This document shows positions 105-30,137 of a stretch of DNA of 33,913 nucleotides, piece by piece. The notes beneath the pieces were generated by a model. That model was given only the letters and a program-made list of their open reading frames with translations, was not told the origin of the DNA and did no database searches. The position numbers and the translations under genes are program-made. Each line of letters opens with the position of its first letter. Within the stretch, counting starts at the first letter, position 1. Source of the stretch: Actinomycetota bacterium (GTDB lineage: Bacteria > Actinomycetota > Actinomycetes > Nanopelagicales > Nanopelagicaceae); assembly GCA_026392945.1 (NCBI GenBank), contig JAPLBB010000033.1, positions 1 to 33,913 of the forward strand, given 5' to 3'.

Positions 105-1028
105 CTACAAGCTCATTGGCAGTAGGGCAGCAATCTGATTGCGTGCAATCAAAAAGCCCTGCTTAACCTTTTCATTTGTGCCTTCAAATCTACGATCCTC
201 ATGCTCGATGCAAAGCACGCCCTCATAACCAACTTGTGACAAAGTAGCTACGAAGTTTGCCCAATTGATCTCACCATAACCTGGAAGTCTTGGTCGTTGC
301 CAGCCAATTCCACCAGACATAATTCCGTTGTTATATAGACCTTCGCGATCAATCTCCATGTCTTTAACATGTGTGTGATAAATACGAGAACCAAACTCTC
401 TAATTACTCGTTCAATATCAATCATCTGCCAAAGTAAATGTGATGGATCAAGATTTAATCCGACGGTTGGACCAAATTTATCAAACATCTCTCGCCAAAT
501 TCTTGGAGAGTAGGCAACGTTATGTCCGCTTGGCCATTCATCTTTACTAAAAATCATTGGACAATTTTCAATCGCAATCTTTACATTACTATCGGTTGCA
601 ACTTTGACAATATCTGGCCAAACTTTCTGTGCCTCGGCCCAATTCTCGTCTTGAGATTTAGATGCATCAGCTCCAATAAAAGTGCTAACTACTGGAACAC
701 CCATTACACCAGCTGCTCTAATAACTTTCTTGGTGTGCTCGTTAACTAGCTTTCGTTGCTCAGGATCTGGGTGTAAATTATTTGGATAGTAACCAAGTGC
801 AGACATTTCAATTTTTCGTTCTTTTAATTGACCAACAATCTCTTGGCCACGATCTTTACTTAGATCTTCAACCTCGATATGGGTGATGCCGGCATATCTG
901 CGATTAGCACCAGAACTTTTTGGCCAACAACAAACCTCTAGCATCTCAAATTTTTCCGCCGCAGCCCACTCTGCAATTTCAAGCAATGGGACATCTGGTA
1001 GTGGTGCAGTTAGTAGTCCGAGTTTCAT
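105..1028 (-). CDS. sugar phosphate isomerase/epimerase, TIM-barrel (xylose isomerase-like) family
   Basis: A 307-residue protein of the AP-endonuclease-2/xylose-isomerase-like TIM-barrel superfamily, which includes IolE, IolI, hydroxypyruvate isomerase and sugar epimerases. The expected metal-binding positions are visible: Glu in IAIENCP (about 155), Asp and His in NLDPSHLLW (about 195), His in YHTHVKD (about 220) and Glu in CIEHED (about 275). The start is well placed, with AAAGGAG just upstream of the ATG at 1028. It is the last gene of the minus-strand run containing the oxidoreductase and the sugar ABC importer, so it probably isomerises or hydrates the oxidised sugar made next door. The exact substrate is unknown. 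Confidence 0.85.
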   Translation of the reverse strand: MKLGLLTAPLPDVPLLEIAEWAAAEKFEMLEVCCWPKSSGANRRYAGITHIEVEDLSKDRGQEIVGQLKERKIEMSALGYYPNNLHPDPEQRKLVNEHTKKVIRAAGVMGVPVVSTFIGADASKSQDENWAEAQKVWPDIVKVATDSNVKIAIENCPMIFSKDEWPSGHNVAYSPRIWREMFDKFGPTVGLNLDPSHLLWQMIDIERVIREFGSRIYHTHVKDMEIDREGLYNNGIMSGGIGWQRPRLPGYGEINWANFVATLSQVGYEGVLCIEHEDRRFEGTNEKVKQGFLIARNQIAALLPMSL

Positions 1029-1056: not shown

Positions 1057-2196
1057 CTATTTGTTTACCTTAATCCAAGAGGATTTTTTAGAACTTTCTG
1101 CGATTGCATCGGTAATTTTTAAGCTGCGAACTCCGTCAGCAAAAGTTGGGTAGGCACCAGAGCGGCTGCCAGTTTCAATATCTGAATAAACTCTTTCAAA
1201 AAGACCACGGAAGGTTTCAGAAAATCCTTCCACATGCCCGCCTGGATAAAAGGAAATCTTTGCTGCCTCCGGTGAAAGCATGCTGGGATCTTTATGCAGT
1301 ACCTCATTTGCTTGACCACGATGTCCAATCCAAAGTTGTTCTGGATTTTCCGCATCAAATGCTAATGATCCTTTAGGCCCTGAAATCTCCCAGTTAATAG
1401 AGTTCTTACGACCGGATGAGATTTGTGAAATTGAAATAGTTGCCCGAGCGCCATTTGCAAACCTGATTAATACTCCGGCTGCATCATCTGATGACATAGT
1501 TACGGTTTCTCGCTTAGAAGTTTTATCAATAGTAAAAGTTTGTACTGGTCCAGTTGGCTTCTGTCTGGTTTTAACTAGCGTATGAAGCTCAGCCATTACC
1601 TCAACAATCTCTAAGCCGGTAACAAAACCAATTTGATCAATTAAATGAGACCCAATATCTGCTACCGCCCGTAATTCACCGGCCTGCTCTGCTTCAAGAC
1701 GCCAGTTCCAATCAGTATCAAGTGTCAGCCAATCTTGATGGTAGTGACCCTTGATATATCTTGGTGTACCAATTAAATCTGATTTAACTAACGATCTTGC
1801 TTCATGAACCATTGGATAAAACCTAGTATTAAAGCAAGTTGCATTTACAAGGCCAGTCTTTTCTGCAAGTTCAACTAACTCAATACCCTCTTTTGCCGAA
1901 AGTGCTAACGGCTTTTCACAAATGACATGCTTACCGGCAGCCATCAATTCTTTAACTTGTGGGTAGTGAAGTGCGTTTGGTGAGGTTACGTGAACAACTG
2001 TCACATCTTTATCAGCAGCAATCTCTGCAACAGATTGGTATTGCGTTTTGATTGAAAGATTTTCAGCGCCTCTTTTAGTACTTTCAGCGCTCCCCGATAA
2101 AACACCTTTAACTAAAACACCAGTTCTTCGAATTGATTCAACATGGACTGTGCCAATAAACCCAGTACCAATAACCGCTGCTGAAGTAATTTTCAT
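1057..2196 (-). CDS. Gfo/Idh/MocA family NAD(P)-dependent oxidoreductase
   Basis: About 379 residues. The N-terminal Rossmann fold shows AVIGTGFIGTVHVESIRR, and the family's active-site segment appears as CEKPLALS near residue 100. The C-terminal alpha/beta domain contains the GHYHQDWL and DIGSHLIDQ segments typical of glycoside or inositol dehydrogenase-like members. I start at the ATG at 2196, directly before the Rossmann strand and four bases after the upstream permease stop; a longer open frame to 2250 would overlap the permease. Enzymes of this family oxidise a sugar or cyclitol hydroxyl with NAD(P). Pairing with a TIM-barrel isomerase and a ribose-type importer resembles inositol or keto-sugar pathways, but the substrate is not determined here. 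Confidence 0.88.
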   Translation of the reverse strand: MKITSAAVIGTGFIGTVHVESIRRTGVLVKGVLSGSAESTKRGAENLSIKTQYQSVAEIAADKDVTVVHVTSPNALHYPQVKELMAAGKHVICEKPLALSAKEGIELVELAEKTGLVNATCFNTRFYPMVHEARSLVKSDLIGTPRYIKGHYHQDWLTLDTDWNWRLEAEQAGELRAVADIGSHLIDQIGFVTGLEIVEVMAELHTLVKTRQKPTGPVQTFTIDKTSKRETVTMSSDDAAGVLIRFANGARATISISQISSGRKNSINWEISGPKGSLAFDAENPEQLWIGHRGQANEVLHKDPSMLSPEAAKISFYPGGHVEGFSETFRGLFERVYSDIETGSRSGAYPTFADGVRSLKITDAIAESSKKSSWIKVNK

Positions 2197-2200
2197 AAAA

Positions 2201-3229
2201 TTATGATTTCTCAGATATTTTTGCGTAAGTCCAAGCAAGAGCAAGCACAATTGCTCCGTATATCATTTGCTTCACTGCTTCAGATGAGTTGATAGTTGTT
2301 AACAGTGATGACAGCAAGGTAAGGATCAGTGTTCCCATCATTGTTCCTTTGTACCCACCAATTCCACCCATAATTGATGTACCACCGATAACAACGGCTG
2401 CAACTGATGGGAGTAGAAATGAGTTTGCCAAACTAAGTGCAACAGCGCCGGATTGGCCGCCTAATATAATTCCACCAATACCGCCAAGAATTGCACACAT
2501 TACATATGTAGTAACTTGAACCTGCCAAACTTTTACGCCAGCAAGTCTTGCAGATTGTGCATTATCTCCAATTGCATAGATCAATCTACCTAAACCGGTT
2601 CTAGCTAATATAAAGAGAACAATTAGACTGACAAGCAGCCAGATAAAAAATGGCCAAGATAAAGTGTCAACAATTGAAGCAAAAAATGGCCAAGATCTTG
2701 GATCTGCCGTCGCAGATTCAAACACCCAGCCACTAGTGTCAATAATTGATGCAGTACTTAGTGTGACAAGCGCTTCCGGAACTGTTGAACTTCCCTGCAA
2801 GAAAGTTGTTACTCCTACAGTAAATACACCAATCAGAACTGCGTTCATACCCAGCGTCATAATCAGTGGATTCATTCCTAATAAGCCGACTGCCAAGCCA
2901 TTAATTGCGCCAATCACCACGCAGTATAAAAGTGCAAGAGATAGAGCTACCAATAAACCAGAGGAAGATTTAACGCTAACAATAAATGCTGCGCCGGTAG
3001 CGATCATTGCTAGGGATAGATCAATTCCACCGGTAAGCATGCAAATTGTTTGACCGGCTGCCAAAAGCCCAAGAGCTGCACCTAAATAAAATATGTTTCC
3101 AATAGCCGGAATTGAGAAGTTATAAGAATCTAGTAACCCAGTAATTATATAAAGGGCAAATAAAATTCCAGTAAGTGACAGCATAGATTTAGAAATTCGT
3201 GACTCGTCAAACATTTTTAGCTTAATCAT
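2201..3229 (-). CDS. ribose/simple-sugar ABC transporter permease (RbsC-like), second subunit
   Basis: 342 residues, very hydrophobic, with about nine membrane segments. The branched-chain/ribose permease (BPD_transp_2) hallmark GGIDLSLAMIATGAA lies near residue 67, and the GGTSIMGGIGG segment near 285. It forms the membrane channel together with the other permease at 3226-4168. Its start codon overlaps the stop of that gene (ATGA at 3226-3229), implying translational coupling. Residues around 178-200 carry SWPFF twice, encoded by an exact 16-base direct repeat. It belongs to the same transcript as the ATPase and oxidoreductase. Confidence 0.9.
   Translation of the reverse strand: MIKLKMFDESRISKSMLSLTGILFALYIITGLLDSYNFSIPAIGNIFYLGAALGLLAAGQTICMLTGGIDLSLAMIATGAAFIVSVKSSSGLLVALSLALLYCVVIGAINGLAVGLLGMNPLIMTLGMNAVLIGVFTVGVTTFLQGSSTVPEALVTLSTASIIDTSGWVFESATADPRSWPFFASIVDTLSWPFFIWLLVSLIVLFILARTGLGRLIYAIGDNAQSARLAGVKVWQVQVTTYVMCAILGGIGGIILGGQSGAVALSLANSFLLPSVAAVVIGGTSIMGGIGGYKGTMMGTLILTLLSSLLTTINSSEAVKQMIYGAIVLALAWTYAKISEKS
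2645..2696. repeat. 16-base direct repeat inside the permease gene
   Basis: AAAAAATGGCCAAGAT occurs exactly at 2645-2660 and again at 2681-2696. The copies are 36 bases apart, so the reading frame is kept and the protein carries SWPFF twice, twelve residues apart. It lies in a loop or membrane edge of the permease and looks like the trace of an in-frame tandem duplication. Confidence 0.8.
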
Positions 3230-3909
3230 TTTTTTCCCGCCGTCCGTTTGCGAAGTAATCCGCCGAGTAACACAACCACTATCGTTAATGCTCCAGTTAC
3301 GATCTGGCTATAAGCAGGATCGATACCAAATGCAAGTAAAATTGTTGGAATAAAGTAAAGAATTAACGCCGCTAGGGCTGGTCCAACTAATCCACCAACT
3401 CCACCGGAGAGTGCCACTCCACCTAAAACAGCTCCAGCTACTGAATTTAATGTCGCTGTGTTACTTATATTTGCGAATGGACTAGAGCTTAAAGTTATAC
3501 CAGTTAAAGCTAATCCAGATAGGGCGGCGAATAAACCACCAAAAGCATAAAGCTTTATTCTTGTTAAATTAACATTTACTCCAGATAAAAATGCTGCGTC
3601 TTTATTTGAACCTATTGCATACATAGAGATTCCAAGTTTGCTGCGGTATAACGGAATCCAAATCAACAAAATTGGAAGTATTAGGCAGATTAGTGGAGGA
3701 ATAAAGTTTGGAACTTTTCCAGAGATTAGGTCAGCTAAAGTCTGATTAATTCCGCCACCGGGCTGTGGCATTACATACATCGCAACTCCCACTAGCAAAA
3801 AGCTTGTTGCCAGAGTTACCACAATATCTGCGATTCCAGATACGGAAATTATCCAACCAGTTAAAGCTCCAATCAGGACGCCAACGATAATGAAAACAAA
3901 TGCAAGCAT
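3226..3909 (-). CDS. ABC sugar permease, C-terminal part of a frameshifted gene
   Basis: 227 residues with about seven membrane segments. It matches the body of an RbsC-like permease: ALTGWIISVSGIADIVVTLATS near the N-terminus and AGAVLGGVALSGGVGGLVGP near residue 160. It lacks the family's N-terminal region, which is encoded just upstream in another frame at 3920-4168. The ATG at 3909 has no Shine-Dalgarno sequence, so it is probably not a genuine start. Skipping one base near 3915-3920 would join the two frames as SAKY-SKSLMLAF, giving a normal-length permease of about 313 residues. It ends in an ATGA overlap with the second permease. This may be a real mutation, a sequencing indel or, less likely, recoding. 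Confidence 0.8.
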   Translation of the reverse strand: MLAFVFIIVGVLIGALTGWIISVSGIADIVVTLATSFLLVGVAMYVMPQPGGGINQTLADLISGKVPNFIPPLICLILPILLIWIPLYRSKLGISMYAIGSNKDAAFLSGVNVNLTRIKLYAFGGLFAALSGLALTGITLSSSPFANISNTATLNSVAGAVLGGVALSGGVGGLVGPALAALILYFIPTILLAFGIDPAYSQIVTGALTIVVVLLGGLLRKRTAGKK

Positions 3910-3919
3910 AAGAGATTTA

Positions 3920-4168
3920 CTAGTATTTAGCTGACAAGCAGTTAATTAAGACCGCTTCAGCACCAATCGCTAAATTGATTCCACCCCCGATGATGATTAA
4001 CGCCTGCCCCATCGACAAAAGTGCAATAGGTAAAATTCCAAGTACAAATGTACGGGCTTCATATGCACCAAATTGCGGCAGTTGACTAATACGCCAAGCG
4101 CCTAAAACAAAAGCTAAAAGAATAATTGCCAGATTCCAACTTTGTCTTTTAATCTGAATTAGATTCAC
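3920..4168 (-). CDS. ABC sugar permease, N-terminal part of a frameshifted gene
   Basis: 82 residues: a basic N-terminus, two membrane segments, then the permease signature IIIGGGINLAIGAEAVL that normally begins the central transport domain. It stops at tandem TAG TAA codons after SAKY, exactly where the downstream open frame (3226-3909) takes up the rest of the family. The start overlaps the ATPase stop (ATGA, 4165-4168), which confirms this is the true beginning of the permease gene. Alone, 82 residues could not form a channel. If the frameshift is real, the importer would lack one permease half. Confidence 0.8.
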   Translation of the reverse strand: MNLIQIKRQSWNLAIILLAFVLGAWRISQLPQFGAYEARTFVLGILPIALLSMGQALIIIGGGINLAIGAEAVLINCLSAKY

Positions 4169-5640
4169 TTGGCTACCGCAATTCCGTGAGCGGCATTTAA
4201 CAAGTTTTCCTCATCGCACTTATCAATCGGTAAGTCTGCTTGAACTTTACCTTCATAAATTACTATTGCACGGTCGCACGCTAGTTGAATTTCACGTAGT
4301 TCAGATGTAAAGAGCAAAACTGATTTTCCTTGACTAGCAAAATCACGTACTAATTCATAAATTTGTTGTTTAGTTCCAACGTCAATTCCTCTAGTTGGAT
4401 CAAAACATAGTAGAAGATCAAAACCAGTGGTAACCCAACGTCCAATAGTTACTTTTTGTTGATTACCACCGGATAATCTCTTAACTTGAGATTTAGCGCG
4501 AGTATCAATTTGTAGACTTGAAACCGCATCATCAACTCGAACTTCTTCATCTTTCGAATTGATAAATCCCCACTTTGAAATTCCTCTAAATCTTGTTAAC
4601 GCTAAATTTTCTCTAATAGATCGTTGCGGCATAAGTGCAGACTTACGATCTCCCGGTACATACGAAATGCCTAATTTAATTGCATCACTTGGATGGCTAA
4701 ATATTACTTTTTTACCATTAATTAAAATGTCACCAGACTCTGGATTACTTTCCCCCGCCAATATTTCAAATAATAAATCCTGTCCTTGCCCTTCAAGGGC
4801 TGCTACACCAAGTACTTCGCCTTTCTTAATCGTAAAGCTCAAATCCTTTAGATGCTTACCGCCAGATATCCCTTTAATCTCTAGAAATGTCTCACTACTT
4901 ATATTTGATTTAGATGACCGAGAATCATTTGAATTTCCCTTATTTTTATCACCCAGCATTGCTTGAACAATCCGCTCTTCACTTCCCTGTGAAGCTTCAA
5001 AGGTATCAACATTAACTCCATCTCTTAATACCGTTGCCCGATCGCAAATCTCTTCAATCTCTGCAAGTCGGTGAGAAATAAAGATGATTGACTTACCTTT
5101 TGCTTTTTGATTATTCATAACAGCAATAACTTTTTCTGCTAAATCTATTGGTAGGGCTGCAGTAATTTCATCTAGAATTAGAAGTTCTGGGTCATGCGAT
5201 AGCGCACGAGCTAAGTCAATCATTCTAAGCAATGGCAACTCTATATTTGCCGCAATTTCATTAAGGTTTACTTTTAAGCCCATTGCGGCAAGCTCAGAAA
5301 TAAATCTAGCCTCATTTGTACCGGTAAGAGTTAGGTTTCTTTGAATTGAAATATCTGGAATTAAGGCTGGATCCTGAAAAACTGGTGCAACACCATTTTT
5401 TCTAGCATCATCTGGAGAAGAAAAAGTTAGTTGCTTTCCATTCAGAGAAATTGTTCCACTATTGCTTGTGATAACTCCGGTTAATATTTTTACAAGCGTA
5501 GATTTTCCGGCACCATTTGCGCCAAGTAGTGCGTGAATTTCACCTGGGCTGACTTCAAAGTCGGCATTTTTAAGGGCAATTACTGAGCCATACGATTTTT
5601 CTAATCCTTTAATGCTTAAGAGTGAGGAGTTGCTGGCCAC
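4165..5640 (-). CDS. sugar ABC transporter ATP-binding protein, two fused ATPase domains (RbsA/MglA type)
   Basis: 491 residues with two nucleotide-binding domains in tandem, energising the ribose-type importer. Domain 1 has Walker A GANGAGKS (about 40-47) and Walker B LLILDE. The usual LSxGxxQ signature is replaced by ELPLLRMID, and DEPTAAL reads DEITAAL. Domain 2 has the family's degenerate P-loop (ALEGQGQDLL), an intact LSGGNQQKV signature and a Walker B reading LLLCFDPTRGID, so the catalytic Glu is replaced. I chose the GTG at 5640 because GGAGGAG sits just upstream; a TTG at 5652 is the longer alternative. It is separated from the binding-protein gene by a strong stem-loop. Confidence 0.9.
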   Translation of the reverse strand: MASNSSLLSIKGLEKSYGSVIALKNADFEVSPGEIHALLGANGAGKSTLVKILTGVITSNSGTISLNGKQLTFSSPDDARKNGVAPVFQDPALIPDISIQRNLTLTGTNEARFISELAAMGLKVNLNEIAANIELPLLRMIDLARALSHDPELLILDEITAALPIDLAEKVIAVMNNQKAKGKSIIFISHRLAEIEEICDRATVLRDGVNVDTFEASQGSEERIVQAMLGDKNKGNSNDSRSSKSNISSETFLEIKGISGGKHLKDLSFTIKKGEVLGVAALEGQGQDLLFEILAGESNPESGDILINGKKVIFSHPSDAIKLGISYVPGDRKSALMPQRSIRENLALTRFRGISKWGFINSKDEEVRVDDAVSSLQIDTRAKSQVKRLSGGNQQKVTIGRWVTTGFDLLLCFDPTRGIDVGTKQQIYELVRDFASQGKSVLLFTSELREIQLACDRAIVIYEGKVQADLPIDKCDEENLLNAAHGIAVAK

Positions 5641-5683
5641 TGACTCCTCCAAACTGCTAATCGTCGAAATCCGCTTTTTTAAA

Positions 5684-5759: not shown

Positions 5760-6833
5760 TTAACGAGATCCATCATCAGAGTCTTGTGGTGCCTTGCAAC
5801 GGAACAATTGCGCAGGTGTAAATGTGGTGATACCAGGCAATGAAAGTGTTGCAGAGAATGTAGCTTCTTGTGAAGGTACATAGTTAGCAGTTATTGCTGC
5901 CTTATCAGTCTTGTATGTAAGCGCCTTTGGAGTTAGCAGGTTCTTTGCTGGAACTGTCTTGCCATCAAGCAAGTCAATTGCAACCTGTGCTGCATAACCA
6001 CCAATAATTGCTGGGTTTGGTACAACAATTCCAACAAATCCCTTAGGTGCAAGAGAAGCTGTTAGGCGTTGGAACTCATTGTTATCACTACCAAATACTG
6101 GGATGTACTTACCCTTTAGCTTGGTTGTCATAGCAGTAACGACGTTGTAATCGATACCTGAAGTCCATACTCCTTGGAACTTACCTGGTACTAGCAATTG
6201 GCTAGCAAGTGTTCCGCCAGTTGCCCAATCCCAGTTAGTAAATACTTCTTTTGTAACCTTAATCTTTGGATACTTAGCTAGTGCTTCTTTGAAACCAGTA
6301 TCGCGATCGGTATCTGCACCAGCACCTGAAGCTCCACGCATGTAAAGAACATTTCCTTTACTGCCCATTGCCTTAAACAGTGCTTCTGCGCCTACGCGAC
6401 CATATGCAACCTGATCGTTAGAAACAAGAGTTGTGTTTGGTGCGGTAATTGCGTTATCAACTGCAATAACTTTAATTCCGGCAGCAACAGCCTCTGCGAT
6501 TGCAGCGTTGTTTGCTGCTGGATCTCCTGAGTTAACAATAATTGCGTTAACACCTTGAGTCTTTAGGGTACGGATATCAGCTGATTGACCAGCTGCATCT
6601 GTATTACGTGAAAGAACAGTTACGCTTGCAACTTTTCCTGAAAGTGCTGCTTGAGCTTTAATAGCGCAAACCATTGTTTCGCGCCATGAGTTTCCAGCCC
6701 AGCTATTACTTACACCAATCTTGTACGTACCTGCCGCTTGTGCTGGGGCTGCAATTAAAGAAGCACCCAATACAAGTGAGATTGATGAAGCAACTGCTAA
6801 GCCAGCTTTAATACGCTTTGAACTTAGTTTCAT
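5760..6833 (-). CDS. sugar ABC transporter substrate-binding protein (ribose-binding type)
   Basis: 357 residues. A basic N-terminus (MKLSSKRIK), a hydrophobic core to about residue 27 and the AQA site near 33 form a Sec signal peptide. The mature part is a periplasmic-binding-protein fold of the RbsB/Peripla_BP_4 family: YKIGVSNSWAGNSWRETM at the start, INSGDPAANNAAIAEAV near 100, and IPVFGSDNNEFQRL near 240. No lipobox cysteine is present, unusual for a binding protein in a single-membrane bacterium. AAGGA lies just before the ATG. It heads the importer run and would deliver the substrate to the permeases. Confidence 0.9.
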   Translation of the reverse strand: MKLSSKRIKAGLAVASSISLVLGASLIAAPAQAAGTYKIGVSNSWAGNSWRETMVCAIKAQAALSGKVASVTVLSRNTDAAGQSADIRTLKTQGVNAIIVNSGDPAANNAAIAEAVAAGIKVIAVDNAITAPNTTLVSNDQVAYGRVGAEALFKAMGSKGNVLYMRGASGAGADTDRDTGFKEALAKYPKIKVTKEVFTNWDWATGGTLASQLLVPGKFQGVWTSGIDYNVVTAMTTKLKGKYIPVFGSDNNEFQRLTASLAPKGFVGIVVPNPAIIGGYAAQVAIDLLDGKTVPAKNLLTPKALTYKTDKAAITANYVPSQEATFSATLSLPGITTFTPAQLFRCKAPQDSDDGSR

Positions 6834-7854: not shown

Positions 7855-8631
7855 ATGCGGGCAGGTCAAGGCAAAGCTGGCGAAAAGGCCGCTTTGCGCT
7901 ACCAAGAAATTGAGGCCTGGCTAAGAGAAATCATCATGGCCGGCCGGCCTGGACAGGCGCTTCCCTCTGAGGTTGAGATTGCAACTAACTTTGAGGTTAG
8001 TCGAATGACAGCCCGACAAGCAGTTTTAAATTTAATGCGAGAAGGTTTAGTAGATCGAAGACGAGGTGCTGGAACATTTATTGCTGATAACCCCTTGCAC
8101 CGCAGAGAGGGCGTACTACTCTCATTTTCTGAGGATATGAAGCGGCGAGGACTTACACCATCTTCAACAATGATTTCAAGTAAAAAAGAGATTGCAACCT
8201 CAGAGGATAGAAACGCACTTGGTCTGAAAGATCCTTCCTCAGTTATTGTTATTAAAAGAATTCGAATCGCAGATGGCACACCATTAGCCCTTGAGCGAGT
8301 AGCACTTCTAACGCAATGTGCAGCAGTCTTAAATGAAGATCTTGAGAATGGATCACTACATGATGGGTTACGTAAAATCGGCTTTCAACCAACTGTAGCT
8401 AGTGGTTGGCTTAAGGCCCGGCTTGCTACCGCCCAAGAGGCAAGAAAATTAGATCTACCTTCAAAATCTCCACTGTTAGTTGAAACTAGAGTAATTGAAG
8501 ATGAAAATGGTTTAGCAATTGAACATACTGAAACTGCTTATGCGGCCAATCGTTACGTAGTGGACATTAAACTTAATTGTGCACCAGCGGTAATGGCGCC
8601 ATTTAAGGCAGCCCCAATGGCACCAGCATAA
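7855..8631 (+). CDS. GntR-family transcriptional regulator, HutC subfamily (UTRA domain)
   Basis: 258 residues. An N-terminal winged helix (about 15-80) shows the family pattern ALPSEVEIATNFEVSRMTARQAV followed by GLVDRRRGAGTFI. The UTRA ligand-binding domain (about 95-245) includes VIKRIRIADGTPLALERV and IEHTETAYAANRYVVDI. AGAAGGTAG precedes the ATG. It is the only plus-strand gene in the catabolic locus and is divergent from the SIS gene. HutC-type regulators usually bind a pathway sugar phosphate and release repression; matching candidate operators occur near 6911, 7819 and 10965. Its last 79 bases overlap the convergent kinase gene. Confidence 0.9.
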   Translation: MRAGQGKAGEKAALRYQEIEAWLREIIMAGRPGQALPSEVEIATNFEVSRMTARQAVLNLMREGLVDRRRGAGTFIADNPLHRREGVLLSFSEDMKRRGLTPSSTMISSKKEIATSEDRNALGLKDPSSVIVIKRIRIADGTPLALERVALLTQCAAVLNEDLENGSLHDGLRKIGFQPTVASGWLKARLATAQEARKLDLPSKSPLLVETRVIEDENGLAIEHTETAYAANRYVVDIKLNCAPAVMAPFKAAPMAPA

Positions 8632-9482
8632 AAACCTAGAGTTGCTGGCACAATATTTATTGCAGATTCTGGATAAATATTTGATTGTTTAGCCATTTCT
8701 TTACGGATCTCATTTAACAAAATATCACCAGATTGAGCAACCCCGCCACCAATAATTATTGTGTCTGGTGCAAGCACCACCATTACATTTGTTAGTGCAA
8801 TAGAAATCCAGTAGCCAACCTCTTTAAATGCAGCTAATGCTTGAGCATCACCGGCAACTGCTTTTTTATAAGCCTCTTCAGAAGTTTTTGTTCCGGCTAA
8901 TTTTGCAATTGCTGCTGAGTTTGTAAGTGTTTCAGCACATCCTCTGCTACCACAACCACATAGTGGGCCATCGACTTTAACAATCTGATGTGCAATTTCA
9001 CCAGCACCACCGGTTGATCCCATGTGAATCTTTCCATCGATAACGATTCCACCACCAACGCCGGTGCCAATTACATAACAGGCAACAGTTTTCTTACCAT
9101 GTGCTGCGCCCATAATTGCTTCAGCTAATGTAAAAGCGCGAGCATCATTAATTAAAGCGGTTGGTAATTTAACTGCATCTGCCACTGGAGCTAATGCTTG
9201 AAAGCCTTTCCAAGGTCCAGGCAGGTTTGGAAATAAGACAATAGTTCCATCTTTTGCGTTAAAAACCCCAGGTACGGCAACACCAACGCCAGCTAAATCT
9301 GGGAACTCTGCCAAATTATCTTTTGCTAATTTAGCTAATCTACTCACGACGTGAGCGGGTCCGCCTTCAGCTTCAGTTGCCTGATCATCTTTTTTTATTA
9401 CTTGCCACTTGTTATCAATTTTTTCAATAACAGCAACTTTAATGTTTGTGCCGCCAAGGTCTAAACCAAGATATTTAGTCAC
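8553..9482 (-). CDS. ROK-family sugar kinase
   Basis: 309 residues from a GTG at 9482, which puts the phosphate-binding motif LGLDLGGTNIKVAV right at the N-terminus as in other ROK proteins; GGAAAG lies upstream. In-frame ATG codons at 9500 and 9506 are alternatives. The ROK zinc motif CGCGSRGCAE is near residue 180, preceded by GAGEIAHQ, and the DLAGVGVAVPG segment near 75 is typical. It phosphorylates a hexose or aminosugar with ATP; sugar specificity is not readable. It overlaps the aldolase stop by eight bases (coupled) and the convergent regulator by 79 bases. Confidence 0.9.
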   Translation of the reverse strand: MTKYLGLDLGGTNIKVAVIEKIDNKWQVIKKDDQATEAEGGPAHVVSRLAKLAKDNLAEFPDLAGVGVAVPGVFNAKDGTIVLFPNLPGPWKGFQALAPVADAVKLPTALINDARAFTLAEAIMGAAHGKKTVACYVIGTGVGGGIVIDGKIHMGSTGGAGEIAHQIVKVDGPLCGCGSRGCAETLTNSAAIAKLAGTKTSEEAYKKAVAGDAQALAAFKEVGYWISIALTNVMVVLAPDTIIIGGGVAQSGDILLNEIRKEMAKQSNIYPESAINIVPATLGFYAGAIGAALNGAITAGAQLSLMSTT

Positions 9483-10164
9483 GGCCAAATCTTTCCACAT
9501 ATTCATCAATCATGATTGCAGTTGTAGTTGCGCCACTGCGAGAGATGCCAGCATCTAGATACTCAATTAATGCATCAAGAGTTCTAACGCCGCCTGCACT
9601 TTTAATCTTCATCTTAGGCGAAACACTACTACGCATTAACTTAATATCAGCAATAGTCGCACCCGTTGGGGCGTAACCGGTTGAGGTTTTAACATAATGC
9701 GCCCCGGCTGCCTCGGTAAGTTTGCAAGCGGTCACCTTTTCTGCCTCAGTTAAATATGCATTCTCTAAAATAACTTTAACTGTCTTATCACCTGCTGCTT
9801 TTACCACTGCTGCAATATCATCTTGCACCTGTTGATTTAAGCCAGATTTAAGCAATCCAATATTTAGCACTACATCAATTTCAGTAGCTCCATCTGCGAC
9901 AGCTTGCTTGGTTTCAAATACCTTAGTTTCGGTAGTAGAAGATCCGTGTGGGAAACCAACTACTGTGCCAATCTCAACATCAGTACCTTTAAGTAAGTCA
10001 GCACAAAACTTAACATCAGCAGGTTTGCAGCAAACTGATGCCACATCATACTTCTTAGCAATCTCACACCCAGTTTTTACTTCATCTCTAGTCATCTCTG
10101 GTTTTAGTAATGAGTGATCAATAGTTTTTGCTATCTGCTTCATTGAATACTTTGGATGTGCCAT
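9475..10164 (-). CDS. deoC: deoxyribose-phosphate aldolase
   Basis: 229 residues, normal DERA length. Key residues are visible: ATEIDVVLNIG with the catalytic-site Asp (about 100), the Schiff-base lysine in YVKTSTGYAPTGAT (about 160), and the second lysine in MKIKSAGGVRT (about 188). The reaction is 2-deoxyribose 5-phosphate to acetaldehyde plus glyceraldehyde 3-phosphate. AAAGGAG precedes the ATG at 10164. It lies between the SDR and ROK kinase genes and overlaps the kinase start. In this locus it may cleave a deoxysugar phosphate from nucleosides, or a related aldol substrate of the imported sugar. Confidence 0.93.
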   Translation of the reverse strand: MAHPKYSMKQIAKTIDHSLLKPEMTRDEVKTGCEIAKKYDVASVCCKPADVKFCADLLKGTDVEIGTVVGFPHGSSTTETKVFETKQAVADGATEIDVVLNIGLLKSGLNQQVQDDIAAVVKAAGDKTVKVILENAYLTEAEKVTACKLTEAAGAHYVKTSTGYAPTGATIADIKLMRSSVSPKMKIKSAGGVRTLDALIEYLDAGISRSGATTTAIMIDEYVERFGRD

Positions 10165-17871: not shown

Positions 17872-18252
17872 TTATAACGGTAACACAAAAAATACAGCAG
17901 TAATTAATGCCGCTAGAGCGACTGATTTAAGCAAAATAGAAATTGCAGTTTTGCGATCTGCCTTACGATCTTCAGCAGACTGAACTTTAGAAATTTTTCC
18001 CAATCTTTCAAAGTTAAATGTTCCTGCCAACCCATAAGCTAGACAAAACTTACTTCTAGATTGCACAAAACCAATTGAAAAAACTAGTGCTGGTATAAAA
18101 ATCGTCAGACGAGAAGTTCTACTTTGATCAGTTGCGAAAAGTGCTGTTGCAGAAGATACAGTTAGAAAAATTCCGAGAAGGGCAACTAATTGGCGCTGCC
18201 TAATTTCACCTTTACCAATGTTGCAGGTGCCTGGGATATACCCGCTGCTCAC
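17872..18252 (-). CDS. small membrane protein with CNIG motif, unknown function
   Basis: 126 residues. The N-terminal GYIPGTCNIGKGEIRQRQ is a motif I associate with an uncharacterised family of actinobacterial membrane proteins. Three hydrophobic segments follow (about 22-40, 48-62 and 106-125), with a basic, lysine/arginine-rich stretch between the last two. It begins with GTG at 18252, immediately after the stop codon of the 49-residue gene upstream, so the two are coupled. No enzymatic motif is seen. A minus-strand hairpin with a U tract lies downstream. Confidence 0.65.
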   Translation of the reverse strand: MSSGYIPGTCNIGKGEIRQRQLVALLGIFLTVSSATALFATDQSRTSRLTIFIPALVFSIGFVQSRSKFCLAYGLAGTFNFERLGKISKVQSAEDRKADRKTAISILLKSVALAALITAVFFVLPL

Positions 18253-21157: not shown

Positions 21158-21229
21158 GCCCCCGTAGCTCAGGGGATAGAGCACCGCCCTCCGGAGGCGG
21201 GTGCGCAGGTTCGAATCCTGCCGGGGGCA
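21158..21229 (+). tRNA. tRNA-Arg, anticodon CCG
   Basis: A 72-base cloverleaf can be folded by eye: acceptor GCCCCCG pairs with CGGGGGC, D arm GCTC...GAGC, anticodon stem CCGCC/GGCGG around loop CTCCGGA, and T arm GCAGG-TTCGAAT-CCTGC. The anticodon CCG reads CGG arginine codons. The discriminator base is A and CCA is not encoded. It stands alone between msrA and whiB1. Confidence 0.96.
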
Positions 21230-23128: not shown

Positions 23129-24124
23129 CTATATCAGGTGGTTACCAATTTTATCGATCTGTTTGCTGAAGGACGTGCTCTGCCAGAAATACTGCTTCCG
23201 AAGTGAATAAATACCTGCCACCTGCACCTTCGGATCATACGGGATTTGAATATTTAAGAAATTTTTTACTAGTTCTATAAATTTTTTTTGAATCATCCGT
23301 CCATAACGGTCAAATTTTGCATTATTCAAAATATATATAATCTTAGGTGGGTTAATTAAATTAGCAAAATCCTCCACAAACCTACTCAAGTAGAAAATAC
23401 CATTTTCATCTGCATTAATAATATAAATGAGATTATATGAAGAATTTATACTCTCAAATAACCATCGAGCATTTAGACGGCGATCGGATAAAGTTGAAGT
23501 TAATGAAATTGCACTGCCACCGTCAATTAGCAGATTCTTCTCAGATGTTTTGCTGATACTTTCTATCAGATCAGGCGCTGCGATCTTAATAACTACGCAG
23601 CCACTCTTAGGACGAATATTATGATGAACTCCAGCGATAACTTTAGCGTCAATACTTAATGCAAGATGGTTAGTAACGGTAGAAATTCCAGGTGAACCCG
23701 GTGACCCAATTACTGTTGTCAGATTACTTCTTCTAGATAATTTGTGAATTAGTGGTGGTTTACTAACTTGAGAAAGCTCTGTCAGTAAATTCAACCTATC
23801 GTCACTTAAGGTACTGGTTTCAATAAATCTATGTGCTTTAAACTTAATTGAAAAATATAATAAATCTTTTTCATTCAAAAAGTCCTTGGAATATACGATA
23901 TTTGATTGTGGCTGATTCTTGTCTAGAAATCTTTCAAGTGATTCTAAATTAAGCGCCCGATAGATGATATTACAACCCTGGGAAAATAGAAGCTCTGCAA
24001 TATTATCTTCTTTTTCACTATTACTAATTGCAGTAATTAAATTTAATTTTAAATTAGATGCTTCGGACAACAATAATCCTGCTATCTGAAAGTAATTGTA
24101 GGGTTGACAGAATCTGAGTGTCAT
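23129..24124 (-). CDS. CpaE-like MinD/ParA-family protein with degenerate P-loop
   Basis: 331 residues from the ATG at 24124, but that start overlaps the upstream gene by 71 bases. A TTG at 24070 with AGGA just before it gives a more natural overlap of 17 bases. The N-terminal part (about 28-75) resembles a receiver-like domain. The second half is MinD/ParA-like, but its P-loop reads GSPGSPGISTVTNHLAL: both expected lysines of KGGxGKT are missing, so ATP hydrolysis is doubtful. NLLIDGGSAISL and LIYIINADENG look like later strands of the fold. It pairs with the SAF/CpaB-like gene, suggesting a Flp-pilus-derived or secretion-related role. Confidence 0.6.
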   Translation of the reverse strand: MTLRFCQPYNYFQIAGLLLSEASNLKLNLITAISNSEKEDNIAELLFSQGCNIIYRALNLESLERFLDKNQPQSNIVYSKDFLNEKDLLYFSIKFKAHRFIETSTLSDDRLNLLTELSQVSKPPLIHKLSRRSNLTTVIGSPGSPGISTVTNHLALSIDAKVIAGVHHNIRPKSGCVVIKIAAPDLIESISKTSEKNLLIDGGSAISLTSTLSDRRLNARWLFESINSSYNLIYIINADENGIFYLSRFVEDFANLINPPKIIYILNNAKFDRYGRMIQKKFIELVKNFLNIQIPYDPKVQVAGIYSLRKQYFWQSTSFSKQIDKIGNHLI

Positions 24125-27873: not shown

Positions 27874-28545
27874 TTATCGTATTAGAGAATTGCGCCCTAC
27901 TGCACACGCTGTCACCACGGCATCAACGGTGATTTTGGCTTCACCCAGGGCCCGAACCCCCTCATGTATTGATGCTCCAGTGGTCACTAGATCATCAATC
28001 AAAATCACCGCACTCTGAGAAATTGGTGAACTTTTCACTATAAACGCATGGCTCATATTTTCTTTTCGTTGTGAGCCATTCAAATCACTCTGATCTTTAA
28101 TCTTCTTGATTGGTTTTAGCAATGGTGAGTAAATGCTATAAATATTTTGTTGATTTAATTGAGATATTACTTCTTGTGCTAAATCTTTAATATGATCTCT
28201 ACCTCTTCTTCTGATTGCACTTAGTTGTGATGGAATTGTTACTAGATTTATTGGCTGAGATATACCTAAATTTAGAATAGCAAAACTTATTGAGCTCGTG
28301 ATGGATCTAGCAATTAACTTAACTGCATCCTTATTGCCTGACTCTTTCGCTGCAAGAATTACCGATGAAGTTGTTTCGTCATATGTGGTAACAAAAAATA
28401 AATAATTATTCTCAATTTTGGATTTATTTGGATTAGCTAGCCAATATTTAGAGCAATCATGGCAAATTTTTGCACCAGTTTTGCCACAGCTTAAGCAAAC
28501 ATTTGGATAGATTAGTTCCTTTAAACTGTGAATCGATTTAAGCAC
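27874..28545 (-). CDS. comF: ComF-family phosphoribosyltransferase-like protein
   Basis: 223 residues. An N-terminal zinc-ribbon ([15 protein letters not shown], about 17-31) precedes a phosphoribosyltransferase fold, with [14 protein letters not shown] near 110 and the PRPP loop [13 protein letters not shown] near 180. ComF proteins support DNA uptake in competent bacteria and are present in the secA-mtrAB cluster of actinobacteria. The start is a GTG at 28545 with no ribosome site; TATAAA five bases upstream could be a -10 of a leaderless transcript. The hpf gene found between comF and secA in mycobacteria is absent. Confidence 0.88.
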
Positions 28546-28580
28546 ATGCTTTTATAACAGAAGAATCCATCTAAAATAAG

Positions 28581-30137
28581 TTAGTCCACTACCAATGTTG
28601 ATGAAAATCCCTCTGGAATTAAATTAATAGGAAATGATTGAATCAAGTTACCGTGCTGTTTAGGGAGCGTTAACACAAAGTGAGCACCTTGATTCGGTCT
28701 TCCCCAGGCAAGTAATTGGCCTTGGTGAAGTTTTGCATCTTCGAGAGCAATTGACAGTCCTAGTCCGGTACCACCACTTGTCCTTGCTCTTGATGGATCA
28801 GCACGCCAAAAGCGATCAAATAAATGTGGTGCATCTTTTTCATCAAAACCTATACCAAAGTCTCTAACGCCAATTGCAACTTCATTATCACTTTCTTTTA
28901 TTTCAATCTCAATTTTATTTCCCTCACCGTGATCAATAGCATTCGATAACAAATTTCTTAAAATTCTCTCGATTCTGCGTGGGTCTGCTTCAATTTTAAT
29001 TGGGTCTAATGGGGCTGAAATGCTAAATAAGGCCGCTTTACTTGGGTGAAGATAGTCAACAGTTTTTCTCACTAAATTACTTATATCAAAATCAAGTGCG
29101 CCAAGCGATGCTGCTTCAGCATCGAATCTACTTACTTCAAGCAGGTCAGATAGTAAAAGTTCAAATCGATCAATTTGGTTTATTAGCAATTCACTACTTC
29201 TTGCAATATTTGGATCAAAATTTGTTTTTTGCTCATAGATTACTTCGGCAGCCATTCGTAAGGTGGTAAGTGGAGTTCGAAGCTCATGAGAAACATCAGA
29301 TACGAATCTTTGTTGTAGCAACGATAAATTCTCAAGTCTATAAATTTGCTCTTGAATTGAGGCAGCCATCTCATTAAATGATTTTCCTAAAGTTGCTATT
29401 TCATCTTGACTAGATACAGCCATACGGCTCGAAAAGTCCCCTTTAGTAAATTTCTCTGCAACCGCAGCAGCTTGCTGAACTGGCGAAACTACCTGGCGAA
29501 TTAAAAAATGGGTACTTAATGCAATAAGCATTACTAATAAAAATCCAGCGAGAAACAAAATCCAAGTAATTGTCGAAATGCTCTCATACTGTGCATTTAG
29601 CTTAAATAAATAATATATTTCATATACACCAGTTCGCGGAATATTTAATTTGCCACCAATAAGAAATCCAGGGTATTCATTACCGTCTGAGTAACGAATT
29701 ATCGTTCGCTTATCCATTACGGCATCAGAGTTTCTTACTTGTTCTCGGAAAGAGTCTGGGATCGAATCTAAAACTAATAGGGTTGGAACAGTCTGGTAAA
29801 TGTTCTGGGACCTAGGATCGTTTGTAACTGGCAAGAGCACTGTTTCGCGTCCTGAGAGTGAACCATCTTCCCTACTTGAGGTAATAAAATCTGTAACAAC
29901 TTTTTTCAATCCAGAATCATTTTGGAAACGAGCTATATCAAAGTGACCTTGAGCTAAGTAAAGAGCATTTGAAGTCTCAACTTTGGATATCGCTATTTTC
30001 TCATTAATAATTGTCGAGGCAACTCTATTGTGAAGAGTAAATCCGATAACTAACGAAATTAAAATTGAGAACGCAATACTGCTAGACAGTACTTTAAGAC
30101 TAAGTGATTGCTTAATCTTAATCTTGCTAATTAGCAT
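28581..30137 (-). CDS. mtrB: two-component sensor histidine kinase MtrB
   Basis: 518 residues. Two membrane helices (about 18-36 and 190-212) enclose an extracytoplasmic sensor region. A HAMP domain (about 212-262) follows, then the HisKA helix with His284 in FVSDVSHELRTPLTTLR, and a HATPase domain with NLLSNAIDHGEG, VRDFGIGFDEKD and GGTGLGLSIA. MtrB controls cell division, cell-wall and osmotic genes through MtrA. It starts two bases after the mtrA stop. lpqB, which usually follows mtrB and modulates it, is missing between here and comF. Confidence 0.93.
   Translation of the reverse strand: MLISKIKIKQSLSLKVLSSSIAFSILISLVIGFTLHNRVASTIINEKIAISKVETSNALYLAQGHFDIARFQNDSGLKKVVTDFITSSREDGSLSGRETVLLPVTNDPRSQNIYQTVPTLLVLDSIPDSFREQVRNSDAVMDKRTIIRYSDGNEYPGFLIGGKLNIPRTGVYEIYYLFKLNAQYESISTITWILFLAGFLLVMLIALSTHFLIRQVVSPVQQAAAVAEKFTKGDFSSRMAVSSQDEIATLGKSFNEMAASIQEQIYRLENLSLLQQRFVSDVSHELRTPLTTLRMAAEVIYEQKTNFDPNIARSSELLINQIDRFELLLSDLLEVSRFDAEAASLGALDFDISNLVRKTVDYLHPSKAALFSISAPLDPIKIEADPRRIERILRNLLSNAIDHGEGNKIEIEIKESDNEVAIGVRDFGIGFDEKDAPHLFDRFWRADPSRARTSGGTGLGLSIALEDAKLHQGQLLAWGRPNQGAHFVLTLPKQHGNLIQSFPINLIPEGFSSTLVVD

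Follow-up and report, generated by a model that had tools for sequence, protein, structure and literature searches.

Does a sugar ABC permease whose coding sequence is divided between two reading frames reflect a protein made by recoding, the loss of a channel subunit, or an error of assembly? We addressed this question for the gene that we call permease A, which is located on contig JAPLBB010000033.1 (33,913 nt, analysed at its full length and referred to here as the window) of assembly GCA_026392945.1 from an Actinomycetota bacterium (Nanopelagicaceae). The gene is part of a minus-strand cluster that contains, in order, genes for a substrate-binding protein, a two-domain ABC ATPase, permease A (broken), permease B, a Gfo/Idh/MocA oxidoreductase and an AP_endonuc_2 protein. 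As originally predicted, the remainder of the importer operon is intact, with the binding protein, the ATPase and permease B all encoded by whole ORFs.

Table. Features of the importer gene cluster in the window (L039, closest orthologue of permease A)
Feature	Position	Strand	Remarks
Substrate-binding protein (Peripla_BP_4)	5760..6833	-	intact
ABC ATPase (AraG/AlsA/RbsA-like), two-domain	4165..5652	-	intact; GTGA overlap with permease A
Permease A, whole locus	4168-3226	-	broken
Permease A, N-terminal part	3920..4168	-	82 aa; GTG start; 91% identity to L039 residues 1-82
Permease A, putative deletion point	3922..3924	-	about 17 bases absent by alignment; placement ambiguous by 1-2 bases
Permease A, C-terminal part	3226..3909	-	227 aa; other frame; BPD_transp_2 positions 61-269 of 269
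Permease B, second permease	2201..3229	-	intact; ATGA overlap with permease A
Gfo/Idh/MocA oxidoreductase	1057..2196	-	intact; same cluster
AP_endonuc_2 sugar isomerase/epimerase-like protein	105..1028	-	intact; same cluster

The two ORFs of permease A do lie in different frames, as had been proposed, and sequence comparison shows that together they make up a single RbsC-like (BPD_transp_2) permease, with 3920-4168 encoding its N-terminal and 3226-3909 its C-terminal part. The N-terminal part ends in ...SAKY followed by the predicted tandem stops, TAG (3920-3922) and TAA (3917-3919), and the C-terminal part opens with an ATG (3907-3909) that is separated from the TAG by 10 bases. Both parts align to single intact orthologous ORFs, with identities to the closest of these of 91% for the N-terminal part and 89% for the C-terminal part; thus, their pairing is not due to chance. 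The C half matches PF02653 (BPD_transp_2) with 84.3 bits, compared to a gathering cut-off of 26.8, while Pfam returns nothing for the N half by itself. When the halves were each scanned against NCBIfam, neither was assigned to a specific named sugar permease (RbsC, MglC, AraH and others), the best score of the C half being 88.5 bits versus an equivalog cut-off of 386; similarly, all NCBIfam matches of the cluster proteins to named sugar importers (ribose, galactose, allose, arabinose and others) are below threshold.

Two further claims about the ends of the ORFs were confirmed in part. Of the ATGA overlaps predicted with both neighbours, the downstream one with permease B is as described, but the upstream one with the ATPase is GTGA, since permease A starts with GTG at 4168. 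The C-terminal part was said to have no ribosome binding site, and indeed there is no Shine-Dalgarno-like match before 3909; however, its absence is weak evidence, because this crude scan also detects none ahead of two intact coupled starts, those at 4168 and 3229. A scan for promoters and terminators gave nothing useful. In the neighbouring gene, we observed that permease B of both the window and the closest relative is ∼24 residues longer than in other orthologues, and that a mid-protein stretch, SWPFFASIVDTLSWPFF, resembles a short internal duplication.

To compare permease A with its relatives, we assembled orthologues from genome searches and from a separate scan of contigs. The DNA search of the genus matched 2 of 25 genomes, the window's own and one other (G018, 76% identity), and the family search matched 11 of 296, counting the window's own; the order-level search again tallied 296 genomes and yielded nothing beyond the family-level search. 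The contig scan found ten loci, nine orthologues and one distant paralogue. We dropped this paralogue (L042, from Streptomyces, 29% identical) and a 62-aa contig-end fragment that stops short of the junction (L054, in G230), and the nine full-length proteins are the identical set in both collections. The remaining matches are to other permeases, with ∼35% identity or less among the matches listed, and viral contigs scanned for relatives and for the exact junction contained neither.

The comparison with related genomes, which had been suggested as a check on the split, gave a uniform result: all nine full-length orthologues have a continuous open frame across the junction, and the frame change is found in none of them. 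In a nucleotide alignment of the window gene and the nine orthologues, with 5′ ends cut to a common point, there is a single internal gap, which is 17 bases long, occurs only in the window and falls exactly at the junction; the remaining gaps are all at the 3′ end. The closest orthologue (L002/L039), which encodes 319 residues in a metagenome-assembled Actinomycetota genome (JAQCGQ010000001.1), is 76% identical at the DNA level and has 17 extra bases exactly at this point. The stretch absent from the window corresponds to about residues 83-88 of this orthologue and includes, as its final residue, a Phe conserved in 9/9; hydropathy indicates that the stretch is short, hydrophilic and flanked by two hydrophobic segments. 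An AlphaFold2 model of the same orthologue, built with the nine sequences, is poor (mean pLDDT 41.2) and was given no weight; its secondary structure breaks at approximately residues 83-87, matching the hydropathy trough. PDB sequence searches with the orthologue and with a nine-sequence profile produced no match at the thresholds used.

We are therefore highly confident, on these alignments, that a deletion of about 17 bases, whether present in the cells or confined to the consensus, explains the split without recoding. Permease A, which belongs to a sugar or polyol importer of the RbsABC type, has lost ∼17 bases between two hydrophobic segments; as this number is not divisible by three, the frame shifts and translation stops at the TAG directly past the junction, after 82 residues. 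If this is the true allele, the organism would lack a complete permease A and its importer would probably be inactive, with the loss, based on the substitution patterns, likely too recent for decay in the remaining gene or operon.

A gene that had escaped selection for an appreciable fraction of the period separating it from L039 would be expected to carry many more changes than are seen here. The pN values of the two halves relative to L039 are 0.070 and 0.067, lower than those of permease B (0.095), the ATPase (0.129) and the binding protein (0.117), similar to that of the Gfo/Idh gene (0.069), and higher than that of the isomerase-like gene (0.018). The dN/dS ratio of the C half is 0.047, compared to 0.053 for permease B, 0.059 for the ATPase and 0.058 for the Gfo/Idh gene, although these ratios are rough, as synonymous change is near or past saturation, and for the N half dS has reached saturation. 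Likewise, neither half has an excess of amino-acid changes found only in the window over those found only in L039 (0 versus 2 in the N half, and 7 versus 10 in the C half). Because both halves are conserved like intact neighbour genes, we infer that the break is either very recent or absent from the cells, that is, an error of a fragmented assembly.

With respect to these two origins, we favour, with some reservation, a true recent deletion in the cells. The same deletion might instead have arisen in the consensus, with 17 bases lost from an intact gene through, for example, low coverage or merged strains, a possibility that we rate as appreciable and still rather doubtful. In its favour, the assembly is both fragmented and incomplete (69 contigs totalling 1,027,970 bases; completeness 84.57%), both halves show every sign of being under selection, and one published study (PMC11017572) attributes many purported pseudogenes in bacterial assemblies to assembly errors. 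Against an assembly error, no other split gene was seen in the window, which argues that frame errors are not general, and a loss of 17 bases is unlike the miscounting of a homopolymer. We found no second copy of permease A in the assembly: the N half has no match there other than its own sequence, and the C half has, apart from its own, just permease B (26%) and a single distant partial match (28%).

The Pfam scans covered 34 window proteins, the two halves and 32 others; at E 0.001, no match was obtained for three of these (the N half and the ORFs at 17875-18252 and 23132-24124). Elsewhere in the window, a GntR/UTRA regulator ORF (7855-8631, plus strand) and a ROK-family ORF (8553-9509, minus strand) have a tail-to-tail overlap of 79 bases (8553-8631), and there is one tRNA gene (21158-21229, plus strand; Rfam RF00005). 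In the region 27874-30137, a ComF-like gene and SecA come immediately after an MtrB-like histidine kinase; lpqB, which occupies this place in other Actinobacteria, was not seen there.

The original prediction had attributed the break to a single base, at which skipping would rejoin the frames at the right place. Skipping one base does restore the frame, but the resulting protein would have 313 residues versus 319 in the closest relative, and the gene remains 17 bases short of every full-length orthologue. A one-base insertion or miscount would thus require a lineage in which the permease was already six residues shorter, and we regard this as improbable. With the nearest orthologue just 76% identical, an older in-frame loss of 18 bases followed by the insertion is formally possible, but two events are needed, the short form exists in no orthologue, and the ten aligned sequences have no internal indel besides the 17-base gap.

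Still less probable is a functional two-piece permease specific to this lineage, in which termination at the TAG is followed by reinitiation at ATG 3909 and the membrane pieces assemble. The short distance between stop and restart and the position of the break in a hydrophilic stretch with hydrophobic segments on either side fit such an arrangement, and the C-terminal piece could be made by reinitiation at this ATG; however, none of the nine full-length orthologues is split, about six residues are lost as well, the Shine-Dalgarno-like match is missing (weak evidence, as noted above), and we found no support for a functional two-piece channel. Programmed +1 frameshifting to yield a full permease, although the two frames have a +1 relationship and come together at tandem stops, has almost no likelihood, as the length of the deletion already accounts for a frame change that none of the nine full-length orthologues shares, and some six residues common to all of them would be absent from the product.

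Most simply, then, this locus appears to represent a recent deletion or an assembly mistake and not a new mode of protein making. Its significance is mostly one of annotation hygiene: annotators should treat this genome's importer as uncertain and should avoid interpreting the frame break in permease A as recoding. Should the ∼17-base deletion prove real, it would provide a snapshot of the first step in the loss of a sugar importer from a small-genome bacterium.

Permease A has the features of a recent frameshift pseudogene or a spurious assembly pseudogene, with one lesion in an otherwise conserved gene, present in one genome only and missing from all nine full-length orthologues; we found nothing that distinguishes it from such pseudogenes. 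It also resembles RbsC/MglC-type permeases (PF02653) in the profile match of its C half, in its clustering with a binding protein, an ATPase and a second permease, and in having intact orthologues in nine other genomes, but differs from them in being cut into two frames by the ∼17-base gap.
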